In this document: positions 1 through 64,000 of the stretch, in pieces
Position numbering within the stretch: position 1 is the first letter of the stretch
How the letters are laid out: each line of letters starts with the position of its first letter
NCBI GenBank assembly: GCA_949358305.1
Contig: OX442315.1
Location: 1,922,001 to 1,986,000 of the forward strand
Reading direction: 5' to 3'
Source: Strigamia acuminata
Taxonomy: Eukaryota > Arthropoda > Chilopoda > Geophilomorpha > Linotaeniidae
DNA: 64,000 bases
The notes under the pieces: generated by a model
What the model saw: the letters and a program-made list of their open reading frames with translations, nothing else
Told to the model about the DNA's origin: nothing
The model's database searches: none
Made by a program: the position numbers and the translations under genes

Positions 1-894
1 AGTCACTGCTGTTATATAATCTCCATTCTCTTCACTAGTCATCCCAAGTGACACATTTGGAATGTGAGTTATGAACGTGGTTTCAAATGTCATATTTGTC
101 ATATTTGGATTTGCATTTTCAAAGCTCTTAACATCTGTATCAAGTTGAGGAGACCCTGAAGATTTAGTCAACTCTTGCTGGCAGATGCGTTTTTGTTTTA
201 AACAGTCATTTTCATAAAATAAGTACTGTTTGATGAAATATTTATCTTTTTTCACAAATATTTTTTCTTTATCGTCTAAAAAATAATTATTATTACAGTT
301 TATGGTTATAATTTTGCTAGCATAGATAATAGTTTCTTCATATCTGTCAGAGGATGCGACATATTGCTGTAAAAATATCGAATTATTAAAGATTATACCA
401 ACACAGTCATTTGAAAGAGTGTATAATTGCAAATGCGACTTATCCATGAATTGGAGATGTTTTCCGCCTAGCACTAAGTTAAATAAGTGGCCAGTGTTAT
501 AATTGTAGCCATGAAACACATCGCCTTTAATCAAGTATGGAATATATATTTTTAAATCATTAAAAAAACACGTCTTTGGTACTTGACAGGTGTCCTGATA
601 AAATAGTAAATGGGAAAACTCTCTGCTTGTATTTGTTTGCCGTATAAACATTAACTTATTGTACTTTGTATCTACGGAATGGGTTTTGCTATTTCCATAA
701 TCACGTATGAGAATAGTTGTGCTGTTAGGAAAAAACCAGAGAAGATGCGGTATAACACCAACATTTTGTTGCTTGTTATCATATATCTCGATTACATCGT
801 TATCAGGATTTGTTTTAAAACTTGAAAATTGTATATAGGTTGAGTTACCACAATGTAATAAAAAATTAATAATAAATAATCCCAGCAGTTTCAT
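1..894 (-). CDS. Putative secreted/virion surface glycoprotein, 3' end outside window
   Basis: An open frame starts at an ATG at the right end and stays open for 298 codons to the left edge of the window, so its C-terminus is missing. The first ~20 residues form a hydrophobic signal peptide (MKLLGLFIINFLLHCG). The rest is hydrophilic with several N-x-S/T sites and about eight cysteines, as in an extracellular or virion envelope protein. I recognise no family. Very AT-rich codon use resembles the viral islands rather than the host genes, so I infer a viral origin. A C-terminal transmembrane segment, if any, would lie outside the window. Confidence 0.6.
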   Translation of the reverse strand, partial: MKLLGLFIINFLLHCGNSTYIQFSSFKTNPDNDVIEIYDNKQQNVGVIPHLLWFFPNSTTILIRDYGNSKTHSVDTKYNKLMFIRQTNTSREFSHLLFYQDTCQVPKTCFFNDLKIYIPYLIKGDVFHGYNYNTGHLFNLVLGGKHLQFMDKSHLQLYTLSNDCVGIIFNNSIFLQQYVASSDRYEETIIYASKIITINCNNNYFLDDKEKIFVKKDKYFIKQYLFYENDCLKQKRICQQELTKSSGSPQLDTDVKSFENANPNMTNMTFETTFITHIPNVSLGMTSEENGDYITAVT

Positions 895-1557
895 GTTTTT
901 TAATTACTGACATTTTTATTTTAATTACAAAAATTGTTTAAATTACTTTTTTTTGTATTCCATGTCTCATAACAAATAAAAATGTTTTCAAATAATGATA
1001 ACACCATTATACCTGTTTTTTTTCTTCTCTTTTATGATATATGCTTAGTTAAAAATATTAAATTTGAATTGTAAATTCCAAAGGCATGAAAGAGTATAAA
1101 AAGTATAGAAGTGGTGATTGGGACATTTGATGTAGATCATGGCATCAGGATTAGACTGTAGATCCAACAAGACAACATCATCGCCATCGTGTGGTGGAAA
1201 CACATCAACTAAGGAGTTCCCCTACTTCCTCTTTTACTATTATGGTGCTGTATAAATCTCAGTTCAGCACAAAAGTTAAGATAGACTACTTATGTAAGTG
1301 AAAGAGTTAAAATTAACTATCATAATTCCTTAAAAATAAAGAAGAAATTCAACAGATAACCTTACGGACTAGTGCCGAAAACCGAGACGAGGTGTCAACA
1401 ACGTCTTCACCTTTGCATAATAACATTTTGTGTGAATCAACGCCGGTATTCATACAGTAAGTCAATATTAATATTTTATAACGTTATTAAAAATAATAAT
1501 CAACTAAAAAACAACTATTGAAACTTATCATGTATGAGACCCCTTTTCTCACGCTAG
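895..1557. other. Intergenic; possible 5' UTR exon and intron
   Basis: AT-rich sequence without a convincing long frame. A 38-codon frame begins with ATG at 1139. A consensus donor (GTAAGT) sits at 1457 and an acceptor (CTCACGCTAG) ends at 1557, directly before the ATG of the next frame. This suggests a non-coding exon spliced onto that gene. There is no transcript evidence. Confidence 0.3.
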
Positions 1558-5857: not shown

Positions 5858-7093
5858 TTATTTTCTTCGTTTGTATTCTACAATTCTTTTATGTAGTTTC
5901 CTCCTTATCTTGCCCTTTACACAGGTTTCACACACACTTTTAACTTCTTTGGTTCCTTTAAAACCTAATACTAATTCTTTTTTCTCCAGTTGTTCAATTG
6001 TCTCGTGACTTATGTGTCCTAATTGCTGATGCCGTTTTCTGATTATATTTTCAGCTTGATTTGCCTCTCCAGCATTCAATGCTCGTCCTATTGCTATGAA
6101 CTCATTTCTCCTTCTTTCCGCAATCATCAAAGTGATATCCATCTTCTCATTTTTTACTGTAACTTGCTTTTTTTGGAATTCAACGACAATATTTTCATTG
6201 TCAACTAGCTTGGATACTGACATCAAATTGCATCCCAGCTCAGGAACATGCAATACATTTTTCAATTTTAAGTCTTTATTTTGTTTATCTTGATGCCATA
6301 TAATGTCTCCTATTCCAATGGCTTTTATCGTTCCCTCTTTCTTTGCCAATGCTATGTCGATATCGCATTCTCCATATTTGCAAAAGCTATCCTTTTCCGT
6401 TGTCATGTGACTCGTTGCTCCAGAGTCTATCACCCATTTTAGCCCGGTGTTCGCTTCTATTTCTCCGACACAATATGCTGAAATTCCTGCAATTTCATCT
6501 TTTTTTGTTGCAACACGCTTTTTATTTTCTTCGTCTTTTATTTCGTCTTTTTCTTCGTCTTGTATTTTGTTTTTTTCTTCGTGTTGTATTTCGACTTTTT
6601 CTTCATTTTTTCTTTTTTCTTTTTCTTCATCTGGTATTTCGTCCTTTTCCTGTGCCACCATCGTAAATTCTTCATATTTGTCTGTCAAGATTTCGCTGCA
6701 CATCCTCTCACATTTTCCTTCATTTCCGTGTTCCCACACAGTTGATGCTACTTCTGGTTTTGATCGTCCCCTTGCGCGTTGTACACTTCGTCCTCTCCCG
6801 CCAGAGTTTGATTGAACTTCCAACTTTTTGCAATCAGCTGCCATGTGTCCTGATCCATTGCAATTATAGCATTTGACTTTGCTCCTACAATATTTCGACA
6901 AGAGGCCAACTTTTCCACAATTGTAGCAGGTCTTGTTTTTCTGCATTTTACTTCTTTCGTTTTCTCTGTGTGCTGTCTCTTTTCCAAATTGCTTCTTTTC
7001 TCTTTTTGTTTTGGCAAGTCGTATTTCATCTCTGAGTAATTGGTCGCGAATCATATTCATGTCCAAATGTGCCTTTCCTTCTAATGTTCGCAC
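5858..7093 (-). CDS. Copia Gag-protease-pre-integrase fragment
   Basis: 411 codons. Residues ~57-90 carry two CCHC zinc knuckles (CYNCGKVGLLSKYC and CYNCNGSGHMAADC) as in Ty1/copia nucleocapsid. A Lys/Glu low-complexity linker follows, then the aspartic protease motif WVIDSGATSHMT, then a GAG-pre-integrase domain (QLGHISHETIEQL ... CETCVKGK). The frame stops right after this domain, before the integrase DDE core. The start of Gag upstream of the first visible Met is also short for the family. A dead fragment of the retrotransposon. Confidence 0.85.
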   Translation of the reverse strand: MRTLEGKAHLDMNMIRDQLLRDEIRLAKTKREKKQFGKETAHRENERSKMQKNKTCYNCGKVGLLSKYCRSKVKCYNCNGSGHMAADCKKLEVQSNSGGRGRSVQRARGRSKPEVASTVWEHGNEGKCERMCSEILTDKYEEFTMVAQEKDEIPDEEKEKRKNEEKVEIQHEEKNKIQDEEKDEIKDEENKKRVATKKDEIAGISAYCVGEIEANTGLKWVIDSGATSHMTTEKDSFCKYGECDIDIALAKKEGTIKAIGIGDIIWHQDKQNKDLKLKNVLHVPELGCNLMSVSKLVDNENIVVEFQKKQVTVKNEKMDITLMIAERRRNEFIAIGRALNAGEANQAENIIRKRHQQLGHISHETIEQLEKKELVLGFKGTKEVKSVCETCVKGKIRRKLHKRIVEYKRRK

Positions 7094-13922: not shown

Positions 13923-15701
13923 TTAGTCGTCACGTACTGTTGTACGTTTGTTAATAAACATAATCTGCTTATGATGGTTCAACGCCCAGGATGCGTGATG
14001 TTTTTTCCAACAAGACTTACAAAAATAGTTGAAACATAAAATGTCCCGACAAAAATAAAGTCCATTTTTATCTTTGCACATTGAACATAAGGAGTTTTCC
14101 AGATATGGAAACACTAGTATCTAAAAAAATAATTATTATTCGATACATAAGTTGTTAAACATATTTCTATTTATTTAATCACTTTTTTCATAATCTTAGC
14201 TGTCTTGATTATAAAAGAGGTCGCGGTGATTGCTTTCATAAATGATAGCCGGTCACTGAATCCCACATTCGCTGTTCCTAACAATTTAAAACATCATAAA
14301 GAAAAAATTGGACTCTTCATGTTTCATACCAACCATTTGGATAATCTTCCTTGTTTGTATTATACACAACATAAGAAACGCATTCAAAAAGCTCATTCAT
14401 AATTTCATATATTCCTTGTGCAGTGAATGTTCCATGAATTCCACATATGAAAGCTGTTAGCTTTACATCTAGCACTAGAGGTGTGCATTGAGGATAAACA
14501 CAGTTTTCTTTTATCCATGGAACTATCTGAACCTGTTTGTAATAAATTATAGTATAGTAGTTTAAAAATGTCTGGACTGTTTGATACATACAAACTTTGT
14601 CGCTTGTGGACTTGAGATTGGATAATACCAGTTTTTGTCGTAGTAAACACATTGTCCCAAAAGATCTTTGACGTGTTTTGCAGATTTGAACACAATATAA
14701 GTATAACCTGCATGATAATTTAAAAGAAATAAACCAAACTTCAATTTGATGTCTTACCTCTTGTGCGACTTTCATTTATTCCTGGCCAATTAATTTGATC
14801 TATTTTAAACTGATTGAATGCAATCGTTAACACATCTAAGGTATAAAAAGGTAATTAAAATTCCATACAGAACTCTAATCTCAGAATAAAACATGTTTTA
14901 TTCAACGCTCTAATAATTGTTACCATCTGTGACATCAAGAGGAAGACCTCCAATGAAAATTTGTTTTGAATAAGTTTTGTTAACGTTTAATTGACATAGA
15001 ATCTCGCCATTCCAAATATAGCTGTCATCGCGAAAATCTGAAAGAGCCAATTTTGAAATAAAATTTTAACTCTGACTATCAATGTGTAGATTAATTTTGT
15101 ACCTTTTCTGGTTATTTCAAAATTGTTGGCAGTGTGAGGCATGAGAATGGAAGTTCCAGTTGGGTCAAAGTTATTTGAATTAGGCATAATAATGGAATTT
15201 CCGATTGTGTCAAGTTTGTTTGAATCAGACATCGTAATGGAAGTTCCGTTTTTCAAATAATGATCTATGAAAAGATTAATGAATACATTCACATGTTCAA
15301 TCTTACCTCTGATAGCACTATTAGTGTCAGTTGATGGTGGTAGAGCTTGCCAACCCGAGCTCAGCAATATCCTATTCTGAATAAATAAAAGGTTTTATCC
15401 AGTTATTCTTGTTGATTAAAATGTTTAGATATAAGTTGTTCTTACTATACGTTCTGAAAGACTTTCTCTTTTTCTGTCGCCATCGATGTCTGCTGGGAAA
15501 ATAGGTCTTTCTTCATCACACTTCTTCATAATCATGTCACTGATGGGTAAATCTTGATCTAACCTGCTTTTTTTTTTCCTTAAAAAAATATTTGAATGAA
15601 TGGCGTTGATCTCATACATTGTTAAAAGATAATATTTACCTAGTCTTGTCAAACACTATTGCGTTTGATAAACTTGGTGGTGAAAAGTATTTCGATTGCA
15701 T
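13923..15701 (-). CDS. CPEB: CPEB-type cytoplasmic polyadenylation element-binding protein, ten exons
   Basis: A spliced host gene. Exons on the minus strand: 15701-15640, 15563-15446, 15376-15307, 15264-15103, 15037-14924, 14835-14758, 14707-14592, 14532-14334, 14277-14183, 14120-13923. The phases agree at every joint and give 403 residues. RRM1 starts with QIFIGGLP (about 160-240), RRM2 with LTAFICGIHGTF (about 262-338), and the C-terminal zinc-binding ZZ domain keeps CSMC, YFCRDILC, YFCKSCW and HH. CPEBs bind U-rich 3' UTR elements and control mRNA polyadenylation and translation in germ cells and neurons. The N-terminus is short and carries a threefold NGTSI-type repeat. Most introns have GT..AG ends with GTAAG-type donors; the donors at 14333 (GTTGGT) and 14182 (GTGATT) are weak. 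Confidence 0.9.
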
Positions 15702-21963: not shown

Positions 21964-23325
21964 ATGACAACAGTACCATTTGTACCTTCTTACGAGAACA
22001 CGTTTGTAACTGAACTTGCACAAAATTCGCATTGTTTAAATCTCGATTGTGCCCTGAGTCATAATTTAGCATCAATCGATTCTAAAAATTTCGGTAAACA
22101 TTATTCGAATCCTTCTGAGCCAACCAATGTATTTCCAAGAATCTGTCAAAATTGTTTGCGGGCCAAATTCGGAATATACGAAACAAGTGCTACAAGTTTG
22201 TCTTTATTAAGTTGTATACTAATGAAAACGCTCAATATGTCTACCGAGAAATCAGTAGAAGGGCCATTCTTAAAAGCATGTAAACCTGTACAGAATTTAA
22301 TCCCTCAGAAGCAGATAGTTTTTAAGGCTAATACTTTAGTATTTCCTTCTGGACAAATTTTATTGGAAATACTAATGAGTTTGAACACTAAATTGTATAA
22401 TGCAAATATTAATATCCCCCAAGTACAATACAGGCCCGATCCCACTGTTACATCTACAATTAAAAATACAACAAATAATGTGCTTACTTTAAATCCATAT
22501 TTATATGCATATTTTAAACACTTACATGATGTAAAAAGTCATCCATCTAATTACTCAAAAACATTACGCAAGGGAACGTACTCAACCATCGATGATTATT
22601 TGTGGTGCGAAAATTTCGATCCTAAGCATACCCCGCTGGAAGCAACGTATGATGTGGATGCTCTAATGATAGGTAATCTCATTTCTCCTATGTCCAGCTT
22701 ATCTAATTACGTTAAAACAGCAGAATCTTCTATAATCGGAGCAAAAAAAATATTATATTACAAAATAAAAGACTCTATTAAGCTAAGAAACGAAAAAAAT
22801 GATGATCATGAATCGCTGTTACATGCCATAACCACTACGAACTTATTAGAAAAACTATATAAAGTAGGTAGTCGAAAAATCCAACTTCTAAATGAAATGT
22901 TATTCACTCATCTTTTATCCATGAAGCAGTTGATAGTGAATCGAAAACAATATCTACTAGAATTGTATAGTGGCGTATCTGAAAATACGAACAGCGCAAT
23001 TGAATTGCATATTTCTTCGTTTTGTCTTCCTTCTATAATAACAGAGGATGATCAAGCTAAAGTGTTCAGAGAACACAGACCTAATGTCACATGGGAAGAG
23101 GGAATTGGACTTATAACGACGAGAGATATTTGCGAAAACGACTTGTTAATAATAGACCAGCAAATAACGATAAGAAATTATGTCAAATTGAAAATTAACG
23201 TTTACAAAGATCATTTATCGTATAATACGATACATTTGCCACACCACGATGAAACGGAAATGCCAATTTTAATGGAGGGTCGAAATACTGGTGTGACTAA
23301 AGAATGTATTTATAAATTTCTGTAA
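21964..23325 (+). CDS. Viral paralogous family protein, copy 1
   Basis: 453 residues, no signal peptide. Shares with three other proteins here an N-terminal zinc-site-like block (C-x4-C-x-LSH ... RICQNCL..KFG, about residues 22-70), a middle block ending PSGQILLEILM, a long variable region, an LNPYLYAYFKHLHD block, a (L/M)RQLIVNRK helix and a C-terminal block GIGLITTRDICENDLLI. I recognise no known family. The last block faintly recalls the start of SET domains (G-x-G-L-x-x-T-x-x-I), but the rest of a SET domain is not evident. First of three tandem copies. Confidence 0.7.
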   Translation: MTTVPFVPSYENTFVTELAQNSHCLNLDCALSHNLASIDSKNFGKHYSNPSEPTNVFPRICQNCLRAKFGIYETSATSLSLLSCILMKTLNMSTEKSVEGPFLKACKPVQNLIPQKQIVFKANTLVFPSGQILLEILMSLNTKLYNANINIPQVQYRPDPTVTSTIKNTTNNVLTLNPYLYAYFKHLHDVKSHPSNYSKTLRKGTYSTIDDYLWCENFDPKHTPLEATYDVDALMIGNLISPMSSLSNYVKTAESSIIGAKKILYYKIKDSIKLRNEKNDDHESLLHAITTTNLLEKLYKVGSRKIQLLNEMLFTHLLSMKQLIVNRKQYLLELYSGVSENTNSAIELHISSFCLPSIITEDDQAKVFREHRPNVTWEEGIGLITTRDICENDLLIIDQQITIRNYVKLKINVYKDHLSYNTIHLPHHDETEMPILMEGRNTGVTKECIYKFL

Positions 23326-23394
23326 ATAAAATTCGCGACGTGTGTTAATTTTAGTTTTTTTTAAATTGACCGCTTTATAAGCGCAGTAATTTAT

Positions 23395-24015: not shown

Positions 24016-25353
24016 ATGTACATACCATCAGTGACAGATTTTCGCGTACCTTTACTTTCACTCTCACCATTCTGTAATGATCAAGATTGTTTGTTGTCAC
24101 ATAAACTAATCAGTTTTGACAAAAAAAATTTCGGGAAGTATTATAACAATACAGGCTATCCTACAAATTTATTTCTTCGTATATGTAACAACTGTCTTTT
24201 GGTTAAATACGGCCTTTATGAAGCCTATCATTCAGAAAACGTGAGGAGTTTAAACTGCATGTCAAAAAAAACTCAAACAGACGACGAAAATGGCCCCAAA
24301 GAAGGTCCGTTCCTTAAGGCGTATAAATCCATTCCAGGATTACTAGATGATGACCAAATAGTATTCAAGAAAGATACTATAATACTACCCTCTGGTGTAC
24401 TGCTAATCGATTTGCTGATGTGCGATCGAGAAAATTTATTCAACATTGATTCAAAAATACCCATTGTTAAAATTAGCGGCAAACCTTATTCGATCAATCC
24501 TTACATATTTGGTTACTTTCATCACATTCACGATATTCAAACGTCTCCTTCTACAAATACGCAGTTAGATATAAGCAAGATTAAAAACTTTGAAGACATG
24601 TTGTATCAGAGTTCTGATAACAAAGACAATACGAGATGTTTGGCAGGGGTTTATGAGCAAGAAGCAATTATGATGAGCAATTTGATCCATCCATTAGCTG
24701 CAAAATCCACGTATGTCGAGAAAGGAAAAAATTTCCATTTAAACGTGGATAAAACTTTGACGATGGAATTGCTCCCGTCTGTATTTAGAGATGCTGCAAA
24801 TGAAACTCTCATTAAAGAAAAGCCTGAATTAGCGACGCAAGAAATCCATAATGGTTTGACATTAAATGTAACAAATCCATTACCCGGTGAAGCGATATTG
24901 ACTTCTATCAAACTTAAAGGATTAAACAACCTGCTTCATTTGGCTGGATTATCTATGAGGCAGTTAATTGTAAATAGAAAGAAGGGATTACTAAATTTCT
25001 TTGACAGTACACGAGCCAGAATGTACTCAGCGATGGCTTTACGCACATTGTCATTCTGTGTCCCCAGTGTAATAGAAGATTCGAATAATGTAGTTTTTCG
25101 TACTTTATTACCTAATGTGACATTTGTTGAAGGTGTTGGATTAGTCTCAACTATCGATATATGCAAGAATGAATTGTTAATTGCAGACACGAAAGTCTCG
25201 CTCAATGATTTCATCAGATTGAAAATGAATACTTACGAATCGTCTTTGAAATATAACAAGCGAACGATGTCCGCGGATTCATTGCCGCTAACTTACAAAT
25301 ACGAAGGACGAAATCCTGAAAAGAATAAAATGTGTTTATATGCAAACTTTTAA
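24016..25353 (+). CDS. Viral paralogous family protein, copy 2
   Basis: 445 residues. It has the same order of blocks as copy 1: C-x4-C-x-LSH and RICNNCLLVKYG near the N-terminus, EGPFLKAYKS, a PSGVLLIDLLM block, INPYIFGYFHHIHD, MRQLIVNRK and GVGLVSTIDICKNELLI near the C-terminus, ending in a shared aromatic/basic tail (YEGRNPEKNKMCLYANF). Conservation of Cys pairs and block order against much sequence drift implies old duplication under selection. A T-run/A-run motif lies about 55-65 bases upstream. Confidence 0.7.
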   Translation: MYIPSVTDFRVPLLSLSPFCNDQDCLLSHKLISFDKKNFGKYYNNTGYPTNLFLRICNNCLLVKYGLYEAYHSENVRSLNCMSKKTQTDDENGPKEGPFLKAYKSIPGLLDDDQIVFKKDTIILPSGVLLIDLLMCDRENLFNIDSKIPIVKISGKPYSINPYIFGYFHHIHDIQTSPSTNTQLDISKIKNFEDMLYQSSDNKDNTRCLAGVYEQEAIMMSNLIHPLAAKSTYVEKGKNFHLNVDKTLTMELLPSVFRDAANETLIKEKPELATQEIHNGLTLNVTNPLPGEAILTSIKLKGLNNLLHLAGLSMRQLIVNRKKGLLNFFDSTRARMYSAMALRTLSFCVPSVIEDSNNVVFRTLLPNVTFVEGVGLVSTIDICKNELLIADTKVSLNDFIRLKMNTYESSLKYNKRTMSADSLPLTYKYEGRNPEKNKMCLYANF

Positions 25354-25605
25354 AAGTACTCTTAGAAGTATAATACACCTGCCTCAAATATTGCGGTCTG
25401 AGCTTCATCTTCTATAATTAGAATTATTTGTGACAATTACGATTATATTTAGTGACTGTGTGAGACTGTTATGTGCACAATAAGCTGATTAACTTAGCAG
25501 ACATCCAAATAAAAATTTTGGGAATACATACACGACATGCTATCCAAATAGTTTGCTATCCAAATAGTTTGATACGTTATAAATAATAAAATTTGTTTTT
25601 ATTCG

Positions 25606-46174: not shown

Positions 46175-47344
46175 TTAAAAGTAGGTAGCGTTCTTATGTG
46201 CATTTATATTTAATTGTTCGAAGTCTTTGAATTTTATTTCAGCATCCCCAACTAATATTTCTTCATTATATATATCTTTCGTTGCCACCAAACCTACACT
46301 TGAAACCCATTGCACATTGTACTTATATTCACGAAATGTTTTGGGTGGTTCATCGTCTTGTAATATTTTATTCGGTATACAATGAGATATAATACGTTTT
46401 CCAGTAATTTCTTGAACATTTTCAAAATAAGGTTTGTATATAGTTTTTTCTAGCTCATCGATGTTGCTTATCAACGTACAAAAATCAGAAGAAAACAGCT
46501 GCTCAGATCCTCCAATTATCATGGCATTTTTGTCCTTTATAACTGGATGCGTGTTGTAACTAAACACTTTGTTTACAAACTGTTTGTCGTTTCCACCCTT
46601 TCCTTCCTTCTGAATAAACACTGAACTATTAGTACTAGGACGAACAAGCTCTCCTATTAACAACGCTTCAGCTTCATATGTAGACATTAAATCTAGCTCA
46701 TCGATTCCAACATTATAATTTAAAAACTTTTCTATCAAAGATAAATTTATATTTGTATGAAAACTGTATTTGTGGTATAATGCTTTAAAGTATTCATAAA
46801 TAAACGGATTAAAAATGTACTTATCATTTTTTATTTCATACATCGGAATTTTATCAGGATCGTGAAGAAATAAGCTTGCAGAATCAGTCATGAGAAAATC
46901 AAATAATAAATAACCACACGGTATAATGATTGTTGTTGTAGGGAAAACTATTTTTTTTTTGTGAGACAATGACGAATATGCTTGAAGATACGGTCCTTCG
47001 TTCATGTTTAAACTCCTATATTTCTCTATTGAGCAGTAGTTAATCACGGTGTGTTTGAATGTCTGTAACAATCCAAATTTTATAGCAAGACATGCTTTGC
47101 ATACTGAGGGAAAAACAGAAGCTTCATATTTATACTTTTCAAAGATTTCGTTTGAAGATCTCGAAAATGATAACCACTTATGGCTTAGCATACACTTATT
47201 CGAAATTTCTGTGCCAAACTTTAGTGCATTATCTATAGTGACTTCTACTAATGGTTTAAGAGATTTTAGAAAATTATCTTTTTCTGTTTTGGTTGGTGTT
47301 TCCAGCAACTTTTTGTTTCGACGGAAATTACGTGATACTGGCAT
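46175..47344 (-). CDS. Viral paralogous family protein, copy 4 (divergent)
   Basis: 389 residues from the ATG (MPVSRNFRRNKK); a TTG one codon earlier is ignored. The most divergent family member: the first Cys pair is reduced (KCMLSHKWL), but VCKACLAIKFG, NEGPYLQAYSS, IIPCGYLLFDFLM, FNPFIYEYFKALY and SVGLVATKDIYNEEIL line up with the tandem copies at 22-27 kb. A basic N-terminal extension is unique to it. The promoter region is shared with a divergent small membrane-protein gene. Confidence 0.65.
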   Translation of the reverse strand: MPVSRNFRRNKKLLETPTKTEKDNFLKSLKPLVEVTIDNALKFGTEISNKCMLSHKWLSFSRSSNEIFEKYKYEASVFPSVCKACLAIKFGLLQTFKHTVINYCSIEKYRSLNMNEGPYLQAYSSLSHKKKIVFPTTTIIIPCGYLLFDFLMTDSASLFLHDPDKIPMYEIKNDKYIFNPFIYEYFKALYHKYSFHTNINLSLIEKFLNYNVGIDELDLMSTYEAEALLIGELVRPSTNSSVFIQKEGKGGNDKQFVNKVFSYNTHPVIKDKNAMIIGGSEQLFSSDFCTLISNIDELEKTIYKPYFENVQEITGKRIISHCIPNKILQDDEPPKTFREYKYNVQWVSSVGLVATKDIYNEEILVGDAEIKFKDFEQLNINAHKNATYF

Positions 47345-47350
47345 CAAAAG

Positions 47351-48345: not shown

Positions 48346-48921
48346 TTATAATTTTTTTAATATTTGATGATTAATTTTTTTTAAATGTAAATATAAGCTT
48401 TTACAGCGTTTATTACAGGCGTAACATTTAAAATATCCACTTTTAAAATTATATTCTGCAGATGGATTAGTATCGTTGTGAAAAAAACACAATATTCTTA
48501 TCTTGTCCTTTGTCTCGTGTATATTACCATCAGTCCACAGATTTAAAATCTTTCGATTGCAAGATAAAATCTTAATATTACTTTTAGTTGAAGTTGAAAT
48601 AAAAGGCGCAGTTTTTAAAATATGTTGCTCTAATTTGTCTTTAAGAGATACAGCACAAGCAATTTGTGATCCCAGTACTGGCAGTAGTGATTGATCATTA
48701 GCCAAGACATCACTTAAATTTTCTAAAGGTACAAATACAACTTGCGTGTTATTATAATACATCATTAAGCATGTTACATCTGATTTAAACGTATTATTTT
48801 GAACATAACAACAAACAAAATATTTTTCGAACTTTTTATCGTAACAAAAATCTCCTGCAGTAGGTGCAATATCAAATTTCCTGTCCCACTGCCAATAAAA
48901 TGGTGATGGACCAAAATACAT
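48346..48921 (-). CDS. CHC2-type zinc-finger protein, possible primase accessory
   Basis: 191 residues. The C-terminal ~50 residues hold a CHC2-type zinc site: CFFH (C145, H148) with the NDTNPS signature and CYAC (C166, C169), as in DnaG-type primases where it recognises the single-stranded template. The N-terminal part is unassigned. No TOPRIM catalytic domain follows, so this is the finger alone. I infer it may supply template recognition to the D5-like primase encoded at 8.9-11.7 kb. Confidence 0.65.
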   Translation of the reverse strand: MYFGPSPFYWQWDRKFDIAPTAGDFCYDKKFEKYFVCCYVQNNTFKSDVTCLMMYYNNTQVVFVPLENLSDVLANDQSLLPVLGSQIACAVSLKDKLEQHILKTAPFISTSTKSNIKILSCNRKILNLWTDGNIHETKDKIRILCFFHNDTNPSAEYNFKSGYFKCYACNKRCKSLYLHLKKINHQILKKL

Positions 48922-51247: not shown

Positions 51248-51810
51248 ATGTCTAATGAAGTGTTTAAAGATATGACATCATCCAAAAACTGTTATCGTTC
51301 GCTCCTAAAAGTAATAAGGGAAACAACACCTCAACGATATACGTTGGGGAACTCACCTCCTTTAATTGCGACGAAGTTTACCCAGGAATTTTTATTGGCG
51401 GCGAAACAGTAGCAAGAACCCGAGATTACCTGAAAGTTATCGGCATTACACACGTAATCAACACTGCACAAGGCAACGAAATAACCCAAGTGAACACGAA
51501 CGAACATTATTACGAGCCTTCGGGAATAAAATTTCTCGGCCTACCTTTGATGGACACGCCCGAAACGAATATTTCAGTTCATTTTGTTGAATGTGCAGAT
51601 TTTATTGACGAGGCACTGAATGGTGAAGGCAAAGTTCTTGTTCATTGCTATGGAGGAATCAGTCGTTCAGCCACAATCGTCCTAGCATATTTAATGATGC
51701 GAAAAGGATTCACAGCGGAGGATGCAATTCGCGCCGTACGAAAACGCAGAGATATAACTCCGAATAATGGATTCTTACAACAGTTGTTTGATCTAAATAT
51801 CCGTTGTTGA
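51248..51810 (+). pseudogene. DUSP3/VHR-like dual-specificity phosphatase with a frameshift near the start
   Basis: From about 51271 one frame encodes a complete atypical dual-specificity phosphatase: EVYPGIFIGG, GITHVINTAQG, the catalytic P-loop VHCYGGISRSA (Cys plus Arg of HC-x5-R) with the following AYLMMRKG, and an upstream general-acid Asp in LMDTPE. The only sensible ATG (51248, MSNEVFK) is one base out of frame with it. The joint lies within TTTAAAGA. Family members of ~185 residues dephosphorylate MAP kinases or STATs. Either a sequencing slip in the A-run, an upstream exon or a true frameshift explains this. GC is higher than in viral genes, so I take it as host. Confidence 0.75.
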
Positions 51811-52501: not shown

Positions 52502-54505
52502 ATGGGAATATGGATAATTCCAGTATTGGTCAGTCTAAGCATAATGTGCATTGTTTTGATATTATTCCCCCCAAAGCCCATTAAAGAATGGAAAACATCC
52601 GGTCAGCAAAATGGCATTGCGTATTATAACAAACAGGAAAATAAACTGATAAGTTCACCAAATTTAACATACAAAAATAATTCTTTAATATGTAGCAATT
52701 TCATCCTTAATGGTGTGAACTTACAATTTAATGACATTCCAAATGGACTGCTGTTTTTAAATTCTGATGGATTTAATGTTTGTAAAGACATTTCGATTCA
52801 GGATTCTACTTTAAAATGTAAGATTTTAAAATTCAACGACTATACATTAAAAATCAATGTTGAAAATATCACTGCGGATTCAATTATGTTTTTTAAACCC
52901 TCACTTAGTGAAATTTATTTTGAAAAAAATAGATTTGTGCGTTTAAATACAAACACACATACCGCTCCATATTTTTCTATAGCTACATTTACAAACGACA
53001 ATAAAACTAATTTGTTATCATTATCTGGTTTTGGATTTAATGATTTAAATAATATTCTGTTAGATGGAATATTATTTAGAACAGGTTTTACTGGAATATT
53101 TAGTCAAAACATAATAACTCTACATGAAGATAAAAATATTATTCGTTCGTATGGAACAATCGGTGTGTATAAACAAGAATATGAATTAACTATTCTCGAG
53201 AAATTGAAACTAGATTTAGAAAAGTTATTTCACAATGACCTATGTCTACTACTACATTTGATATTTCACGAATCAACAAAAACATTTTTTCTTACAGCTA
53301 CTAGGAACTTTATAGAAGCTTTTAATGATGAAAGTGATTGCCGCTTGTACTTGTACATAACTTCCAAAAGTGGCAAATGGATAGAATTTGATTTTGACTT
53401 TGAGAAATCATCATTTCTTTTTTTCAATGGGTACCAGTTTAATCAGCAATTATCAATATTCGATAAAGATTATCACGAGCAATTTTTTTCCGATGATTCA
53501 ATGCCCTCTTCAACACTATACACGCATGAAGACCAACAGTTAGTAATTAACCTTGGAGGAAAATTTGAGTCGTCCAGCATCTTAATGATTATTGATCACG
53601 GTCATGCGGGTGAAATTGTAAGATCTCCAAACAACTATGTAAAAATGAAAACTATTAATAATAATTTTATACCCAATTCAAATAATTTATTTTATTTTGC
53701 TGATGAAAATTTAATCCAGCAATCTAATGTGCTGTTGGATTATACTACTCTTTATGATAATTGTTTAGTTGGACTGAAGTTTATAGATGAAGCGTCACAG
53801 ACCTTTACCTTAGGTTGTGTTGGAGACAGGCATTTGCATGTTCACAAACATGAGCTAGTTGATTTACCAGTGATACCTCTTCTGTCTTTACACGAGCGTA
53901 TGATTATTAATAAATACTGTATGTATTACAATTCTAAAATTGAGCAATATCAAAATGATCACCTTATCAAACTCAGACTCGGATCCTATTTGTTAGATGG
54001 ATTTAAATTTACTGGGGATGCAAGAGACTGTTTAGTAGTTTTAGACGAAAACAATACATTGTCTGTTGTTGACGATCTATTCGCACCAACGAATCTAAAA
54101 GCAATACATTCTGGTTCATTCTTTAAAAGCAATCTTGAGTTTACCAATGTGGATGGCAGCGTATTATACAATAATTCCGACCAATTAAAAAAACACATTG
54201 CACTACCATGCTTAACAGATTCATACGAAATGTATGTATACTTTGAAGTCAGATGGGACACAGATGCTCATCAAGACATGGCGTTATTTGAGATATCTGT
54301 GAAAGGCGATAAACACGCTGAGCCGTCAATATTTTATCAAATAGTCACACCTCCTCAGAAAGAAACTTTATACTCGTCTTCAGTGTTAATTACGGCCTTT
54401 TTAGAGTTTGAGGCATTTTCAAATGTCGACATTGTCGTGAATAAAATTTCAGGAAAATGTCAGATTGCTAAAAAAACGTTTATAAAGTTGATTTCGCTTA
54501 GTTAA
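52502..54505 (+). CDS. Large N-terminally anchored protein, viral-type
   Basis: 667 residues. Residues 3-23 form a membrane anchor (IWIIPVLVSLSIMCIVLILF) followed by a basic stretch (PPKPIKEWK), the pattern that sorts baculovirus PIF proteins to the virion envelope. The long ectodomain is beta-rich by eye, with many Asn and N-glycosylation sites and relatively few Cys, which argues against PIF-1 or PIF-2. The early part repeats hydrophobic N-x-L-x-x-N elements. No family recognised. I infer an envelope or oral-infectivity component. ATATAAAAA precedes the ATG directly. Confidence 0.65.
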   Translation: MGIWIIPVLVSLSIMCIVLILFPPKPIKEWKTSGQQNGIAYYNKQENKLISSPNLTYKNNSLICSNFILNGVNLQFNDIPNGLLFLNSDGFNVCKDISIQDSTLKCKILKFNDYTLKINVENITADSIMFFKPSLSEIYFEKNRFVRLNTNTHTAPYFSIATFTNDNKTNLLSLSGFGFNDLNNILLDGILFRTGFTGIFSQNIITLHEDKNIIRSYGTIGVYKQEYELTILEKLKLDLEKLFHNDLCLLLHLIFHESTKTFFLTATRNFIEAFNDESDCRLYLYITSKSGKWIEFDFDFEKSSFLFFNGYQFNQQLSIFDKDYHEQFFSDDSMPSSTLYTHEDQQLVINLGGKFESSSILMIIDHGHAGEIVRSPNNYVKMKTINNNFIPNSNNLFYFADENLIQQSNVLLDYTTLYDNCLVGLKFIDEASQTFTLGCVGDRHLHVHKHELVDLPVIPLLSLHERMIINKYCMYYNSKIEQYQNDHLIKLRLGSYLLDGFKFTGDARDCLVVLDENNTLSVVDDLFAPTNLKAIHSGSFFKSNLEFTNVDGSVLYNNSDQLKKHIALPCLTDSYEMYVYFEVRWDTDAHQDMALFEISVKGDKHAEPSIFYQIVTPPQKETLYSSSVLITAFLEFEAFSNVDIVVNKISGKCQIAKKTFIKLISLS

Positions 54506-58726: not shown

Positions 58727-59870
58727 CACGAAAGATTTTGCATATTCAGTTTTTTCAGCTTGCATATTGTCATGCGGTTGAGTCGCGTCGTCTGCCGACC
58801 GTCTCAAACCAGCACAAATGTTATTAGAATTGTCAAAATCTATCACTAGACAGCGTACGTAATGGTGACATCACGGACGAGTCAATTGGAACTAACTCAG
58901 GGGGGTGACTTGAGTATAAAAGAGCGACTTTGGCTCTTAGAGCTCAGTCTTCCCAGGACTTCTAATGATTAATGTTTCAGCCAGTATATGGCATGATTAG
59001 TTTGCAAATAAGAAAGAAGGTGTTATTCATGTCTTCAGTCTTAATGTTTACTTTGGTTTTAGGTTTAGTTTTATGATTTTAATTAAGTTTATGATTTGTA
59101 ATTAAAGAATAAAAGAACATAGTTTATATTTCAACTTAAACTCTGACTCCTGTTTATTTCACTCTTAGTTATTAAATGATGTTCATCAAAATAGTTATAA
59201 GTTACGTGGTCATTATTGGCCAGTTGGCCACGTAACAAAGTGGTGGAGATTGCGGTTTTCTTTTGAGACCCACTAATTGGTTGATAAAAGTAGTGAATAA
59301 GTAAAAATTTACAGTAAAATCAGCCAGTTTTGTGCTAAAATTGAGAAGTTAGAGCTAAAAAAAACCCGTAAAAACTCAGTGAAAATAGTAGAAATTCTTA
59401 TAAAATTTAGAAAGAGTGCAGATTAATTTGCATATTAGAGAAAATAAGAGTGAATCATAGAGTGACTCAGAGTTTGGAAGCAGTTTCTTAGTGAATAATT
59501 AATGAGATTGCATTGAATTAGATAATACTTTGGATTAAATTGTTAAAGTTGTTTAAAAGTGTTGAATATTAAATATTTAGAGGGAAATAATTTTGATAAT
59601 AATATATTTAATAAAGTTGTAATAAAATAATTTTTTTTTTCCTCCAGTAAAGATTATATTGATTCTAGTGATGACTAATAGTAATATTTGTCTATTTTCA
59701 GGAAATTAGTGACATTGTTGTTAATATTTTGAATTTAAATTGGTGTTTGTTGATAATAAATTAAATTTATTTCAGGATTGTGTGTTGGCGAATTGTGGTT
59801 ATTAGTGAATGTGTGAAGTGCATTATAGAGTAGTAAAAATAAAAATTATAGTGCAGTTCAAGGCTTAACA

Positions 59871-60215
59871 GTGGAGGAATCAGTAAAGCTTACACAAACA
59901 CAAACGGATTGTCTGCTAGATTTACAAAACCAAGAACTACAAAGGACAGTGGATAACCGTAATATCACAACTAAAAGAGGGAGTGGAAAAATAAAACACA
60001 CTAAACCTGAAGTTATAGAGGAAGAACAAGTTGTTGAAATAAAACAAGAGGAACCAGTTGTTGAGATAAACCAAGAAGAGCATTTCCAAGACTCATTGTC
60101 CCAACAGGAACTTGATTCTTCTTCACCTTTGAAATTAATAAAGCCAAAATTGTTGCAATCAGTTTTTGAATTATTAACACCAATAAAGATACAAACACCT
60201 TTTAGTAAATACTAA
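59871..60215 (+). CDS. Possible accessory frame of the retroelement
   Basis: A frame of 114 codons with a GTG or no ATG start, encoding a Glu/Gln-rich protein with tandem VVEIKQEEP/VVEINQEEH repeats. It lies between the leader and Gag. Coding status uncertain. Confidence 0.3.
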   Translation: MEESVKLTQTQTDCLLDLQNQELQRTVDNRNITTKRGSGKIKHTKPEVIEEEQVVEIKQEEPVVEINQEEHFQDSLSQQELDSSSPLKLIKPKLLQSVFELLTPIKIQTPFSKY

Positions 60216-60252
60216 TACTCAGGGATCCACATCAAAAGGAACGAAATCCAAG

Positions 60253-61255
60253 ATGGCGGACCCAATAGCAGTTCTAACTGACCTTTTTAAGAGTGTAATG
60301 ATACAAAAGCGGGATGTTATTTGTTATGACACCACAAAGGGAAATATTGACCAATGGCTAGTAGCGTATGAAGCCACAATAGGCACGGATGAGGAGAGAG
60401 TTAAACATTTACCATTAGCGTTAAAAACTGATGGATTGGCATGGTTTGTGGAGTTATTAAAAAAGAATCCAACATGGACTTGGACCGAGTGGAAACCACA
60501 ACTTGAAAAAAAGTTTCGTAGAGGCCAGGAAAATGTTTTAAATACTCTTCACTTCATGAGACACACAGAAGGAACAGCAGATGCCTATATGAAGAAAGTC
60601 TTGGCCGAATGTGCTTTTTGTGTTGCCGGCACTTACTGAAGGACAAAAAATTAATTATGTTTACCAAGGTTTGAAGCCGGCAATGCAGCAAATGATGGTG
60701 ACAGTATTCCCGACTAAACTGGCAGAGATGGAACAAAGACTTAAATTGTATGAGACTATGAAAGTCAAGGATCTAGCGGATGTGCTGCTGTCACTTTTCA
60801 AAAAGGTAGTGGACAAAAAGGTGACTCCAGTAACAGCAGGTAAACTGAGTGGAACTGTAGTAACCCCATTAACCCACGATGAGCTTTTAGCTGAGAATGC
60901 AAGGTTGAGGCAACAGTTATTAGCTTTTGAGACAGAGGATCCGGAGTCTGAAGTACCCATCTTAATAGGAAGCCAGTGGTATGCACCAATGAAGCAAAGA
61001 GGTCAGAATTTTCAATACAAGAATTTTCAAGGAAGTATTAATAGAGGTGGTGGTCAAAATTACAATACTAATAATAACAACAATAGTAATAATAATAATA
61101 CTCGTTTGTGCGGATGCTATCATCATTTTAGTTGCGAGTTCTATAATCCACCAAGATACCAACAGGATAGAGGTGGTAATGCAGGAAGACCAAGAAGACG
61201 TAGAAGAGAAGGTCCTAATCCTACAGTCAACACCCAACAGCAGACGGAAAACTAG
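60253..61255 (+). pseudogene. Retroelement Gag with internal frameshift
   Basis: The first frame starts at ATG 60253 (MADPIAVLTDLF) with a retrotransposon Gag capsid region (WLVAYEATIG ... WTEWKPQLEKKF ... LHFMRHTEGTADAYM). It ends at 60639, and a second frame overlapping from 60611 continues Gag (INYVYQGLKPAMQQMM), ending in a basic Gln/Asn/Arg-rich nucleocapsid-like tail. A single-base change near 60620 explains the break. No CCHC knuckle; a CGCYHHFSC cluster may stand in for it. Confidence 0.7.
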
Positions 61256-61257
61256 AG

Positions 61258-61812
61258 GATCGGCCACAAAGAAATTGTTACCATCCAAATAGAAGTAAGA
61301 AGAAGAAGACAAGATGGAAAAAGGATAAGATCATAATAATTGACGCAAAAATTTCGGAGTCATTGTTGGAAATCCCAGTAATTGTAAAGAATTTGGAAAT
61401 AAAAGCAGTCATGGACACTGGAGCAAAAAGTAACCTTTTGAGTGAAGAAATAGCAGAAATGTTGCAGTTGAATTACATGCCTACGCCAAACATTAGATTG
61501 CGAGGAATAGGTAATGATTTAATAACTCCAGTGGGCAAGATAAATTTGAATATTTACATAGGACAATTGCAGTATGCAGTTGAAGTTTTGATAGTTAGAA
61601 ATTTCAATTACCAGCTTTTATTGGGTGATCCATTCATGACATTTGCGAGGTGTGTCGTCGATTACAACTTACAAAAAATCTTTGTGGGCCGAAATAGCGG
61701 AGTAGAAGCAGTTTTCCCGATGAATAAGACGTATGTGGATCAGAATTATGTAGCAAGAGTGACAAAAAATATAGCAATTTCACCAATGCACGAATGTGTA
61801 GACCTAGAGTAA
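61258..61812 (+). CDS. Retroelement aspartic protease
   Basis: The protease frame is open upstream into the end of Gag, in the -1 frame relative to it, as in elements that make Gag-Pro by ribosomal frameshift. The catalytic motif is VMDTGAKSNLL; LLLGDPFM near the C-terminal end of the domain corresponds to the flap-distal ILG motif. The frame stops before any reverse transcriptase. Confidence 0.75.
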   Translation, partial: DRPQRNCYHPNRSKKKKTRWKKDKIIIIDAKISESLLEIPVIVKNLEIKAVMDTGAKSNLLSEEIAEMLQLNYMPTPNIRLRGIGNDLITPVGKINLNIYIGQLQYAVEVLIVRNFNYQLLLGDPFMTFARCVVDYNLQKIFVGRNSGVEAVFPMNKTYVDQNYVARVTKNIAISPMHECVDLE

Positions 61813-62061
61813 ACATGTGAAGGTATATTCAACTGCACAGTTACACAGCTGACTGAGAAGCAGGCATCAAATGCTTGTTCTCAAGTTTTTGCGTGGTATT
61901 GCACGCTGTTACAACAAAACAAAAGTATAACAGTCATTTGTTTATTTTACTTAAGACAAGAACTATGCATTTTTTTAAAATAAACTCTTTTCAATACTTT
62001 TGGAAAGAAGTTGAATATATGTTGACTCTTTACGCATCATCCTGGATGAAAATAATTACTT
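61813..62061. other. Short intergenic
   Basis: Retroelement/viral boundary; nothing recognised. Confidence 0.3.
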
Positions 62062-64000
62062 TTAAATATTTATTTGTTTTTCTACATCATCACAAATTAA
62101 ATGAATTAAAAAATTTGGTAATTGACGGGGAGCAGAAGGATTATCAAAGATGTGTTCGTATTTACGTGCTACCATCTTAGGATTTTTTCCTGTTGTATAT
62201 ACCGAGTCATTATAATGCAAACAAAGATCTTTACTACAAAATCCTATTTTAAATAGGTTGTATCCCTCAATAGATATTCCAAAGTTCGATTGTATGAGGG
62301 AATCGCGGGATGCTTGTGAGTGATTTACAAAATCCAAAATTCCTAAACCGTTTAGAAAGTTTCCACTGATCTTTTTATTATCAGCAAATGGTGTTTTGCA
62401 GTGAACAAACTTTCTTATTCCAATTTCTTTAACAATTTGAAAAATATGTAAACTATGAAACGAAGTGTTATCGACCACAAACCATGTAAAGGGATAGTTT
62501 TTTCTTCGTAATTGGTTTTCAAATACATTTACATCTTTTGAAAAATTTTTTTCCATGTCAATTAGATATTTTACAGAGATTCCTGCGCCTATATTCATCC
62601 ACATTTTTGTACATAACTCACCTTCCAGTTTGTGAAATAGATCAAATGTCTTTTTGGAGCCTTCTACACAATAATAACAATATAAAATTTTTTCGATGTT
62701 TTGACTATTTACGTCGACTAATCCCTTATACGCAGCCATCATGTCTTGACCAAACGATACTTTTAATTTTTGCAACGATGCCATATTAAATTCGGGATCG
62801 AGAAGTGTTTGACATTCTGCTATTACTTGTGGTGTGTCTAGTGAAATAATTTCAATTTCGTCTCCATCAAAATCTGCACCATTTCTCTTAGTAATTGATA
62901 TTGGAATACCAACTGTATGTAAACTTGTGATACCCACAACAGTGTGAAATGTAATATTTTGAAAATCTAAACTCGGATATCGAACCAATAAAACAGCTTT
63001 GGGATTTCCAAGTACTTCAAATATCTTCCGCGGTAATATTACTTGGTTTGCCTTTATATTAGGTGCTGGAGTAATCACAGATCGACCTGTGTACATTATC
63101 CTTTTCGATAGTAAATGTTTCCTGAAGAAGTTTTCTTTACCTTTCTTAAACCGTTCCTCCATGTTTCCATGAATGAATTTGGTGTACAAAAATACTTTAC
63201 GTGTTTTTACAGTCTTCGGTGTAGTTCCATTGAGAGTCTTCGGTGCAGTTCCGTTGCGTGTCGTCTTCGGTGCAGTTCCGTTGCGTGTCTTCGGTGCAGT
63301 TCCGTTGCGTGTCTTCGGTGCAGTTCCGTTGAGAATCTTCGGTACAGTTCCGTTGAGAGTCTTCGGTCCACTTCCATTGAGAGTCTTCGGTGCAGTTCCA
63401 TTGAGAGTCTTCGGTGCAGTTCCATTGAGAGTCTTCGGTGCAGTTCCATTGAGAGTCTTTGGTTCGTGAATCTTCTGCAGCTTATGAGGCATAATTAAAA
63501 CTCTATCAGACGTCTGTTTTTCTTTCATGGTATTTACAAGACATCTTTTTATTTGACTTAGACAGTACTTGCTTCCTAAATAAAATTTTATAGGTGGGAC
63601 AATGAATTGATTGTCTAACAATAACGAATACTTTTTATCGATTAATTGTTTGCATATTTTTCTTGAAGATTGTTGATTTTGACCGCTGATTTGTTGTAAC
63701 TTTCTTATTCTATATGGTTTAAATTTATAACGTTTCATTAAAGTAATTAATCGTGCTAAATCAAACTTCTTACACGTGGGTCTAAAACACGATTTACAAA
63801 TAGAACAGATGATTATTTTAGCTTTCATGCGATCTAGGTTCGGATAAAAACAAAGAGGACACAAGTATCTTGATGTGTCGTCAATGTAAGACAATTTTGA
63901 ATTTCTTATTGAATTGGCATAAATGTACCGGTCAACAGCTTGATTTGAGGTTACAACACCTAGTTTAGTAAATGTTTGTGATTCCACGTTTGACAATTTA
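62062..64000 (-). CDS. lef-9: RNA polymerase largest-subunit homologue, LEF-9-like, 5' end outside window
   Basis: The frame is open to the right edge (the first visible start-like codon is only a TTG), so the N-terminus is probably missing. Near the start lies a cysteine cluster (CPLC ... CSICKSC ... C). The double-psi-barrel region shows the clamp-side TGRSVITPAPNI and the catalytic metal loop NGADFDGDEIE (about residue 372), where the three Asp bind the active-site magnesium. Size and domain content fit LEF-9, the beta-prime-like subunit of the baculovirus/nudivirus late RNA polymerase, rather than a full RPB1. The motif is closer to the cellular NADFDGDE than to typical LEF-9. About ten copies of an in-frame 8-residue PKTLNGTA repeat are inserted at ~175-265. 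Confidence 0.8.
   Translation of the reverse strand, partial: KLSNVESQTFTKLGVVTSNQAVDRYIYANSIRNSKLSYIDDTSRYLCPLCFYPNLDRMKAKIIICSICKSCFRPTCKKFDLARLITLMKRYKFKPYRIRKLQQISGQNQQSSRKICKQLIDKKYSLLLDNQFIVPPIKFYLGSKYCLSQIKRCLVNTMKEKQTSDRVLIMPHKLQKIHEPKTLNGTAPKTLNGTAPKTLNGTAPKTLNGSGPKTLNGTVPKILNGTAPKTRNGTAPKTRNGTAPKTTRNGTAPKTLNGTTPKTVKTRKVFLYTKFIHGNMEERFKKGKENFFRKHLLSKRIMYTGRSVITPAPNIKANQVILPRKIFEVLGNPKAVLLVRYPSLDFQNITFHTVVGITSLHTVGIPISITKRNGADFDGDEIEIISLDTPQVIAECQTLLDPEFNMASLQKLKVSFGQDMMAAYKGLVDVNSQNIEKILYCYYCVEGSKKTFDLFHKLEGELCTKMWMNIGAGISVKYLIDMEKNFSKDVNVFENQLRRKNYPFTWFVVDNTSFHSLHIFQIVKEIGIRKFVHCKTPFADNKKISGNFLNGLGILDFVNHSQASRDSLIQSNFGISIEGYNLFKIGFCSKDLCLHYNDSVYTTGKNPKMVARKYEHIFDNPSAPRQLPNFLIHLICDDVEKQINI
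63205..63465. repeat. 24-bp in-frame tandem repeat in the LEF-9-like gene
   Basis: Unit GTCTTCGGTGCAGTTCCGTT GAGA on the plus strand, about ten copies; one copy has an extra codon. The reading frame is kept. Confidence 0.95.

Follow-up and report, generated by a model that had tools for sequence, protein, structure and literature searches.

An endogenous naldavirus-like genome in four chromosomal copies in the centipede Strigamia acuminata

A stretch of 64 kb from chr2 of Strigamia acuminata (the window, meaning the whole length of DNA that was analysed) holds genes resembling those of Naldaviricetes, all open, next to spliced genes of animal type, which raises the question of whether it represents the scattered remains of a virus, a maintained but dispersed virus, or one coherent viral genome. 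A first-pass annotation had seen viral islands among host and transposon DNA, interpreted either as an endogenised, broken-up provirus or as dispersal of the bracovirus kind, and had found the gene mix unfamiliar, a judgment that we share. With high confidence, the window comes from the central part of a large DNA virus that has become endogenous, a member of Naldaviricetes or of a close sister lineage, with integrations at four places in the genome. It is best read as a new lineage of centipede naldaviruses whose DNA was inserted into the germ line.

The window falls in the middle of a single provirus of at least 172 kb on chr2, and the provirus occurs in four copies, one on chr2, two on chr4 (chr4a and chr4b) and one on the Y. 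The chr4a copy covers 90.4% of the window and is collinear with it save for one 7.4-kb inversion; the "islands" thus belong to a single viral block, in which genes were captured and into which transposons later inserted. On chr2, the PIF-0 to PIF-3 genes cluster within 172 kb with those for the two RNA polymerase subunits; chr4 has this set at two places, and the Y carries parts of it. In bracoviruses, viral genes are dispersed and the DNA polymerase is lost. Neither dispersal nor breakage describes the centipede provirus, in which the genes lie together and the DNA polymerase is intact in every copy; what stands of the earlier interpretation is that a genome of naldavirus type is endogenous here and that its core genes are intact.

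Identity between the chr2 and chr4a copies is about 99%, while the Y copy is about 4% diverged. The chr4 pair is nearly identical (0/6231 and 3/4911 differences) with a constant offset of 455,817 bp at the PIF-1, PIF-3, RPB1-like and RPB2-like genes, which reflects either a single recent duplication or an assembly effect. The chr2 and chr4 copies keep most examined genes open and the Y copy is decaying, as judged over 27 ORFs (4 ORFs for chr4b). Piece borders or insertions cut the primase-helicase, FEM1 and RNR genes in chr4a, RNR and paralog 3 in Y, and paralog 3 in chr4b, and long "deletions" in these genes are therefore not real losses. The Y copy carries two LTR-type insertions with about 4 target bases repeated at their borders. 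Genome scans with the DNA polymerase and the RPB1-like subunit also found degraded relics at C1 (53%) and on the chr4 contig C5 (59%). These insertions and relics, like the absence of any N in the window, support residence in chromosomes. Contamination was rejected on account of the four chromosomal sites, the insertions flanked by target repeats and the absence of any N.

Table 1. Features of the 64-kb window on chr2, with the evidence for each and its state in the other copies
Feature	Positions	Strand	Evidence and state
Putative membrane protein ORF, 298 aa, runs off window	1..894	-	Open in chr4a; 71%-identical DNA adjoins the window outside, on chr2
Copia-type gag-pol fragment	5858..7093	-	Pfam Pol_BBD E 1.7e-19; same site in chr4a, 95.6% identity, one frameshifting indel
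D5-type primase-helicase, 951 aa	8869..11724	-	PF19263 (DUF5906) E 2.3e-7
Captured CPEB gene, RRM and ZZ domains	13923..15560	-	Nine exon stretches, one frame to stop
Captured intronless FEM1B-like gene, 655 aa	18102..20069	-	53% to Strigamia maritima FEM1B; tree support 100/99; also in chr4a and Y pieces
Paralog 1 of a family (function unassigned)	21964..23325	+	Alignment; absent from Y pieces
Paralog 2, same family	24016..25353	+	Alignment; open in chr4a and Y
Paralog 3, same family	25593..27008	+	Alignment; Y copy split by ~14-kb LTR-type insertion
chr2-private stretch with filamin-repeat piece	27113..28264		Filamin E 1.2e-7; absent from chr4a and Y pieces
Family B DNA polymerase, 1077 aa	29320..32553	-	E 1.2e-43; intact in 4/4 copies
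PIF-2, 338 aa	32611..33627	+	PF04631 E 9.9e-18, above cut-off; intact in 4/4 copies
24-bp tandem repeat	34281..34834		Array length varies among proviruses; mostly missing on Y
THAP-domain ORF	35880..36341	-	PF05485 E 2.3e-15; identical in chr4a, degraded in Y
Ribonucleotide reductase (RNR) large subunit, 772 aa	39749..42067	-	E 1.8e-168; partly compared across copies
Paralog 4, same family as paralogs 1-3	46175..47347	-	Alignment; one-base indel in Y
Small ORF, CHC2-like zinc ribbon	48346..48921	-	E 4.1e-4, below curated cut-off
Dual-specificity phosphatase (DUSP) ORF	51268..51810	+	PF00782 E 9.2e-33; most of it missing from chr4a; disrupted in Y
667-aa protein, hydrophobic N terminus, function unassigned	52502..54505	+	ORF
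chr2-private stretch, Ty3-type gag/protease frames	58768..61800	+	At one border of the 7.4-kb inversion
RPB1-like (LEF-9-position) RNA polymerase subunit, at least 645 aa	62062..63999, open at window edge	-	Rpb1 domain 2 E 6.5e-11; 4/4 copies

Pfam profiles were run over the genome at their cut-offs, with 14 prokaryote genomes as controls, which test for chance and not for animal look-alikes. Loci above cut-off numbered four each for p74/PIF-0 (PF04583) and PIF-2 (PF04631), in all four copies, and three each for PIF-1 (PF05092) and PIF-3 (PF05006), in three of the four copies with none on the Y; none of these profiles matched any of the 14 controls. The annotated PIF-2 is a single open frame with a significant profile match, and p74/PIF-0, PIF-1 and PIF-3 accompany it in the same 172 kb of chr2. 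The p74 frame measures 507 aa in three copies; the Y has two shorter ones instead, 158 and 227 aa long. On chr2, PIF-1 matches profile positions 112-323 only, in a 465-aa frame, as against 2-323 in a 610-aa frame on chr4, and because of this shorter match the chr2 gene may be broken. PIF-5/ODV-E56 (PF04639) gave no match in the genome scan; as the control genomes were equally silent, this does not amount to evidence of absence. A candidate P33 is a 225-aa ORF with a CGMC motif (L024:7523-8200), for which the PDB search returned Erv2 at E 0.31 and Pfam no oxidase match at E<=1. The chr2 copy also contains a 38K-like gene (38K/DUF705, E 2.3e-5), a BRO gene and a thymidylate kinase gene. A protein search with p74 scored 7999 candidates and found no relative at E<=0.001, and PIF-2 drew no relative from the IMG/VR scan and 0 matches from the PDB. 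Chance frames were rejected, as the matches exceed curated cut-offs and seven viral genes recur together.

The ORF first annotated as a LEF-9-like polymerase subunit resembles RPB1 instead, matching the Rpb1 profile and, in the PDB, RPA190/RPB1, with no LEF-9 family listed among Pfam matches at E<=1. Its structure model has a pLDDT of 30.5, and the IMG/VR scan gave no relative. An RPB2-like frame of 914 aa is found in three copies, with only a piece on the Y, and the LEF-8 profile (PF04941) found no match in the genome scan, where the control genomes were equally silent.

The family B DNA polymerase, the primase-helicase and RNR, the last as the large subunit, are each carried in one open frame, as had been annotated. 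Its nearest DNA polymerase relatives are four sequences from metagenomes (P0001-P0004; Logan, JGI), with 37-63% identity to the family B enzyme of the window over 79-100% of the searched stretch; they form one clade with the window polymerase (SH-aLRT 100), and each is known from one or two contigs. An IMG/VR scan with the polymerase alignment gave two loci at 23-24%. The primase-helicase is 99.7% identical to that of chr4a over the 61% compared, the remainder being cut by a piece border; it found no relative in the IMG/VR scan and 0 matches in the PDB.

Two captured genes stand out among the cargo. The CPEB gene, annotated as a host gene of ten exons, is indeed spliced, with eight introns of 42-88 nt between nine exon stretches (a tenth exon, at the 5' end, may exist), and encodes RRM_7 and CEBP_ZZ domains with CPEB1 as the best solved relative (E 2.1e-33). 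Its status as a host neighbour was rejected, as one ZZ exon occurs in each of the four proviruses and two other, ordinary CPEB loci lie elsewhere on chr2; CPEB is cargo repeated in the copies. The intronless FEM1B-like gene is centipede-derived, as its identity to the S. maritima protein and the tree show. The annotated THAP domain was confirmed.

Core genes (DNA polymerase, PIF-2, RNR, RPB1-like, primase-helicase and CHC2-like; for Y without the primase, for chr4b the DNA polymerase, PIF-2 and RPB1-like genes alone) have diverged under purifying selection with omega about 0.2. Between chr2 and Y, Nd is 66.8 and Sd 89.2 (omega 0.19), and between chr2 and chr4a they are 13 and 15 (omega 0.22); a neutral simulation gave a mean of 116.7 of 156 and a minimum of 98 in 2000 runs. 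The "rest" group leaves out copia, paralog 3, THAP and DUSP.

In the main reading, an ancestor would have infected centipedes by means of PIF entry proteins, relied on a polymerase and nucleotide-supply enzymes of its own for DNA replication, and used a viral RNA polymerase with a two-subunit core for late transcription. It would have entered germ-line chromosomes more than once, and the copies would now be passed on vertically. The cells on which CPEB (translation control) and FEM1B (a ubiquitin-ligase adaptor) act are probably those of the host germ line or infected ones, which is a guess. Points against the main reading are the silence of the PIF-5 and LEF-8 profiles, the lack of a LEF-9 family among the listed matches, the p74 search without a relative, the shortened PIF-1 match on chr2 and a P33 candidate recognised by its motif. 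A bolder reading, at somewhat less than even odds, is a giant provirus that is still or was recently mobile, of a centipede naldavirus lineage new at the family or order level, spreading vertically by germ-line re-insertion, with a two-subunit RNA polymerase closer to cellular RPB1/RPB2 than to LEF-9/LEF-8 and with spliced CPEB and FEM1B as cargo.

A less probable alternative to the main reading is one ancient integration, later copied by segmental or Y-linked duplication without further viral replication. The copia fragment at a site common to chr2 and chr4a fits duplication, as do the close identity of these two copies and the near-identity and constant spacing of the chr4 pair. However, omega near 0.2 in both comparisons is unexpected for silent duplicated fossils, and dS between chr2 and Y reaches 0.09-0.10 for the DNA polymerase and PIF-2, exceeding the 0.045 of other aligned DNA (stretches of >=85% identity only).

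It is rather improbable that the provirus is a domesticated viriform, retained by the centipede to make particles in the manner of wasps that carry bracoviruses. The presence within chromosomes of open genes that evolve under purifying selection would agree with such domestication. Bracoviruses (Polydnaviriformidae; PMC10271883) likewise have naldavirus genes that became endogenous in an arthropod. Unlike bracoviruses, however, the provirus has its genes clustered and repeated as blocks, one of them decaying on the Y, and retains replication genes; those for DNA polymerase, RNR and thymidylate kinase are present together with the genes for the two RNA polymerase subunits. That a free virus of the sequenced animal was mis-scaffolded into chromosomes is scarcely credible: the high copy identity and open frames would suit it, but the HiFi/Hi-C assembly places the four copies at separate loci, retroelement insertions are private to individual copies, the inversion is bordered by a retroelement, and the Y copy has diverged, all of which argues against it.

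Among known systems, endogenous nimaviruses of crustaceans are large naldavirus genomes in chromosomes, called giant transposable elements in PMC10871703. They resemble the centipede provirus in residing in arthropod chromosomes, keeping PIF genes and carrying captured host genes, some of the nimaviral ones with introns. The host differs, and so does the gene set: homologs of two RNA polymerase large subunits, along with a 38K-like gene, occur in the provirus but are not given for nimaviruses in Table 2 of PMC10271883; the absence of viral RNA polymerase subunits is a trait of Nimaviridae. Lefavirales, among them the LGDV/AmFV-type viruses of ants and bees with EVEs in 36 ant species (PMC12548425), share PIF-0 to PIF-3, a family B polymerase and viral RNA polymerase large subunits. 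In contrast to Lefavirales, the RNA polymerase genes of the provirus match cellular Rpb1/Rpb2 Pfam models, with the LEF-8 model silent and no LEF-9 family listed, and its copies are repeated blocks.

Among the open-licence papers listed in literature searches, none reported a myriapod naldavirus. Known hosts of Naldaviricetes are insects and crustaceans. If the lack of an earlier myriapod report holds, the class extends beyond these to centipedes, and the provirus shows a large DNA virus residing in chromosomes in several copies and partly intact. It opens the questions of whether viruses of this kind act like giant transposons, why PIF entry genes persist while integrated, and how the RNA polymerase of the provirus relates to cellular ones. 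If the mobile-provirus reading is true, this RNA polymerase is a possible link between the baculovirus type and cellular or nucleocytoviral polymerases.

The first-pass annotation had named PIF-2, a family B DNA polymerase, a primase-helicase and a ribonucleotide reductase (RNR) in the window, and Pfam scans of 20 of its 47 ORFs of at least 120 aa, followed by 20 more ORFs and pieces, bore this out. Significant profile matches were obtained for PIF-2 (E 9.9e-18), the DNA polymerase (E 1.2e-43), the primase-helicase (DUF5906, E 2.3e-7) and the RNR large subunit (E 1.8e-168), along with ankyrin, THAP, copia and Ty3-type pieces and a dual-specificity phosphatase. The polymerase subunit described as "LEF-9-like" matches RNA polymerase Rpb1 domain 2 (E 6.5e-11), and its alignment with RPA190 extends through the region of the NADFDGD active-site motif. 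Pfam contains a LEF-9 model, and that family was not listed for this RPB1-like ORF at E<=1. Four divergent paralogs (29-45% identity to one of them) have no Pfam match and share Cys residues conserved towards the N terminus. A 24-bp tandem repeat of about 24 copies, possibly an hr-like element or an origin, adjoins PIF-2; its array differs in length between the chr2 and chr4 proviruses and is mostly missing on Y. About 33 GGTTTT-like hexamers form an array beside the RNR gene.

The genome was searched as 237,517,015 bases in 157 contigs, including C1 (66,985,994), C3 (chr2, 37,788,348; 37.79 Mb), C5 (chr4, 16,989,096; 16.99 Mb) and C13 (Y, 10,344,242; 10.34 Mb). The assembly qcStrAcum1.1 is described as a HiFi and Hi-C assembly of one male with 237,534,282 bp in 158 scaffolds; the searched set is smaller by one sequence and 17,267 bases, the mitochondrion being the likely cause. 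On C3 the window occupies 1922001-1986000.

The viral genes had been thought to lie dispersed among host genes, and instead they form one provirus in four copies. A profile search placed PIF-2 at four loci (chr2, twice on chr4, and Y), all four of which also hold an intact DNA polymerase, and the RPB1-like ORF and p74/PIF-0 also have four loci each. PIF-1 and PIF-3 were found at three loci, none on Y, the chr2 PIF-1 match being shorter (a 465-aa frame versus 610). An RPB2-like frame of 914 aa occurs at three loci and as a piece within a 185-aa frame on Y; the host's own Rpb2 genes, elsewhere in the genome, give far stronger matches. On chr2, p74, the window, 38K and BRO, PIF-3, RPB2-like and PIF-1 follow one another over 172 kb, and the gene sets on chr4 cover no less than 159 kb and 190 kb. 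Of the core genes still to be sought on the same scaffold, p74/PIF-0, PIF-1 and PIF-3 are present; the Pfam models of LEF-8 and of ODV-E56/PIF-5 gave no match in the genome search, which does not show that either gene is absent. The PIF-0, PIF-1, PIF-2 and PIF-3 profiles each matched 0/14 control genomes, but these are bacteria and archaea with little bearing on animal look-alikes, so the assignments lean on the curated thresholds and on the joint recurrence of the genes. To the right of the window, chr2 carries an AlkB-type 2OG-Fe(II) oxygenase ORF (PF13532, E 9.1e-31); a second ORF there contains CGMC and may be the P33 sulfhydryl oxidase.

Positions of proviral features and related pieces (L024 and L043, sequence pieces)
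Feature	Sequence	Position	Remark
p74	chr2	1,881,954	first of gene order, before window
Paralogs	window	21964-27008; 46175-47347	
24-bp repeat	window	34281-34834	
Hexamer array	window	43102-43311	
38K and BRO	chr2	1,986,169-1,987,811	after window
AlkB-type ORF	L024 (chr2)	5397-6059	
CGMC-bearing ORF	L024 (chr2)	7523-8200	
PIF-3	chr2	2,038,451	
RPB2-like	chr2	2,042,359	
PIF-1	chr2	to 2,054,298	last of gene order
chr4 proviruses	C5	11.07-11.23 and 11.53-11.72 Mb	
p74-region duplicate	L043 (chr4b)	1-642	
Y provirus parts	C13	1,333,844 to 1,707,437	spread over 374 kb
DNA polymerase relic	C1	43257697-43257876	
RPB1-like relic	C5	7989135-7989533	7.99 Mb

Copies were compared via adjacent 10-kb pieces, eight from one chr4 copy and eight from Y, plus four chr2 flanking pieces. 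The first chr4 copy (chr4a) covers 90.4% of the window and the Y pieces 46.3%, and chr2/chr4a homology continues beyond both window ends. Three stretches are private to the chr2 copy: one of 1.15 kb that carries a filamin piece, one of 388 bp, and one of 3 kb and Ty3 type at the border of a 7.4-kb inversion. The Y copy carries two insertions (14.4 and 13.1 kb) that start with TG, end with CA and repeat about four target bases, borders that we read as those of LTR elements. Its p74 is split, leaving two frames (158 and 227 aa), its paralog 4 has a one-base indel and its CPEB ZZ exon contains a stop. The two chr4 copies differ at 0/6231 sites around DNA polymerase/PIF-2 and at 3/4911 around RPB1-like, and therefore either arose very recently as a pair or reflect the assembly; together with an offset of 455,817 bp at four genes, this hints at one large recent duplication or, again, an assembly effect. 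Next to p74, the second chr4 copy (chr4b) carries a duplicate of 642 bp of the p74 region.

The spliced CPEB gene proved real, with nine exon stretches, introns of 42-88 nt, a single frame through to the stop, CEBP_ZZ (E 1.5e-18) and RRM_7 (E 9.2e-18) domains and a PDB match to CPEB1 (E 2.1e-33). It is not a host neighbour, since its ZZ exon occurs at six genomic places, once in each of the 4/4 proviruses and at chr2 19.7 and 23.0 Mb, the latter two taken as the host's own genes; CPEB therefore travels with the element. An intronless FEM1B-like ORF is present in the three copies examined (chr2, chr4a and Y). Within a 23-protein FEM1 tree this ORF groups with Strigamia maritima FEM1B (support 100/99), with branch lengths of 1.53 for the proviral protein versus 0.058 and an unsure placement of such long rows. 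Strigamia maritima FEM1B is also by far its best search match (53%, the next 44%), so the gene was most likely acquired from a centipede.

Nei-Gojobori counts were made per gene for 27 ORFs and summed over the core genes, giving omega 0.19 for chr2 versus Y (Nd 66.8, Sd 89.2) and 0.22 for chr2 versus chr4a (Nd 13, Sd 15); the remaining genes were laxer (0.42 and 0.38). Other aligned DNA diverged by 4.5% (chr2-Y) and 1.0% (chr2-chr4a), and its transition bias was used for 2000 runs of a neutral simulation of four core genes, one or two fewer than in the observed sums. For chr2-Y, the simulation gave a mean of 116.7 nonsynonymous among 156 changes and never fewer than 98, and in the chr4a comparison 0.1% of runs yielded no more than 13 nonsynonymous changes among 28. 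The low omega and the simulation show that the core proteins were being used during the divergence of the copies, either in replicating virus or in the host.

The DNA polymerase search returned 518 proteins at E<=1e-5. Among the best 120 of these, four metagenome/Logan sequences share 37-63% identity with the DNA polymerase across 79-100% of the searched stretch, the fifth match drops to 26%, and none is named as a naldavirus, most carrying no name. In a tree of 43 rows, made by a quick method and with long branches flagged, the window polymerase and those four group together with an SH-aLRT support of 100, and the stem of this clade measures 2.98 changes per column. Degraded pieces with stops, one of DNA polymerase on C1 (53%) and one RPB1-like on C5 (59%), point to older insertions of related viruses.

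Of the genes that mark Naldaviricetes, PIF-0, PIF-1, PIF-2, PIF-3 and DNA polymerase are found in the provirus, alongside a candidate P33 and no match to the Pfam PIF-5 model. Like Lefavirales, it has its own RNA polymerase large subunits; it is not filed in that order because, of the marker genes covered, Pfam LEF-8 is unmatched and the LEF-9 family is unlisted. Among known comparators, endogenous nimaviruses are described as integrase-bearing giant transposable elements, with introns in some of the cargo (PMC10871703), LGDV-related elements are reported from 36 ant species (PMC12548425), and nudiviruses reported by a survey that included a myriapod library come from crabs (PMC6950620). Among the matches listed from open-licence papers, there was no naldavirus of a myriapod. 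The provirus is best read as a new lineage of endogenous naldaviruses carried by a centipede, present in multiple large copies and with core genes recently under selection.
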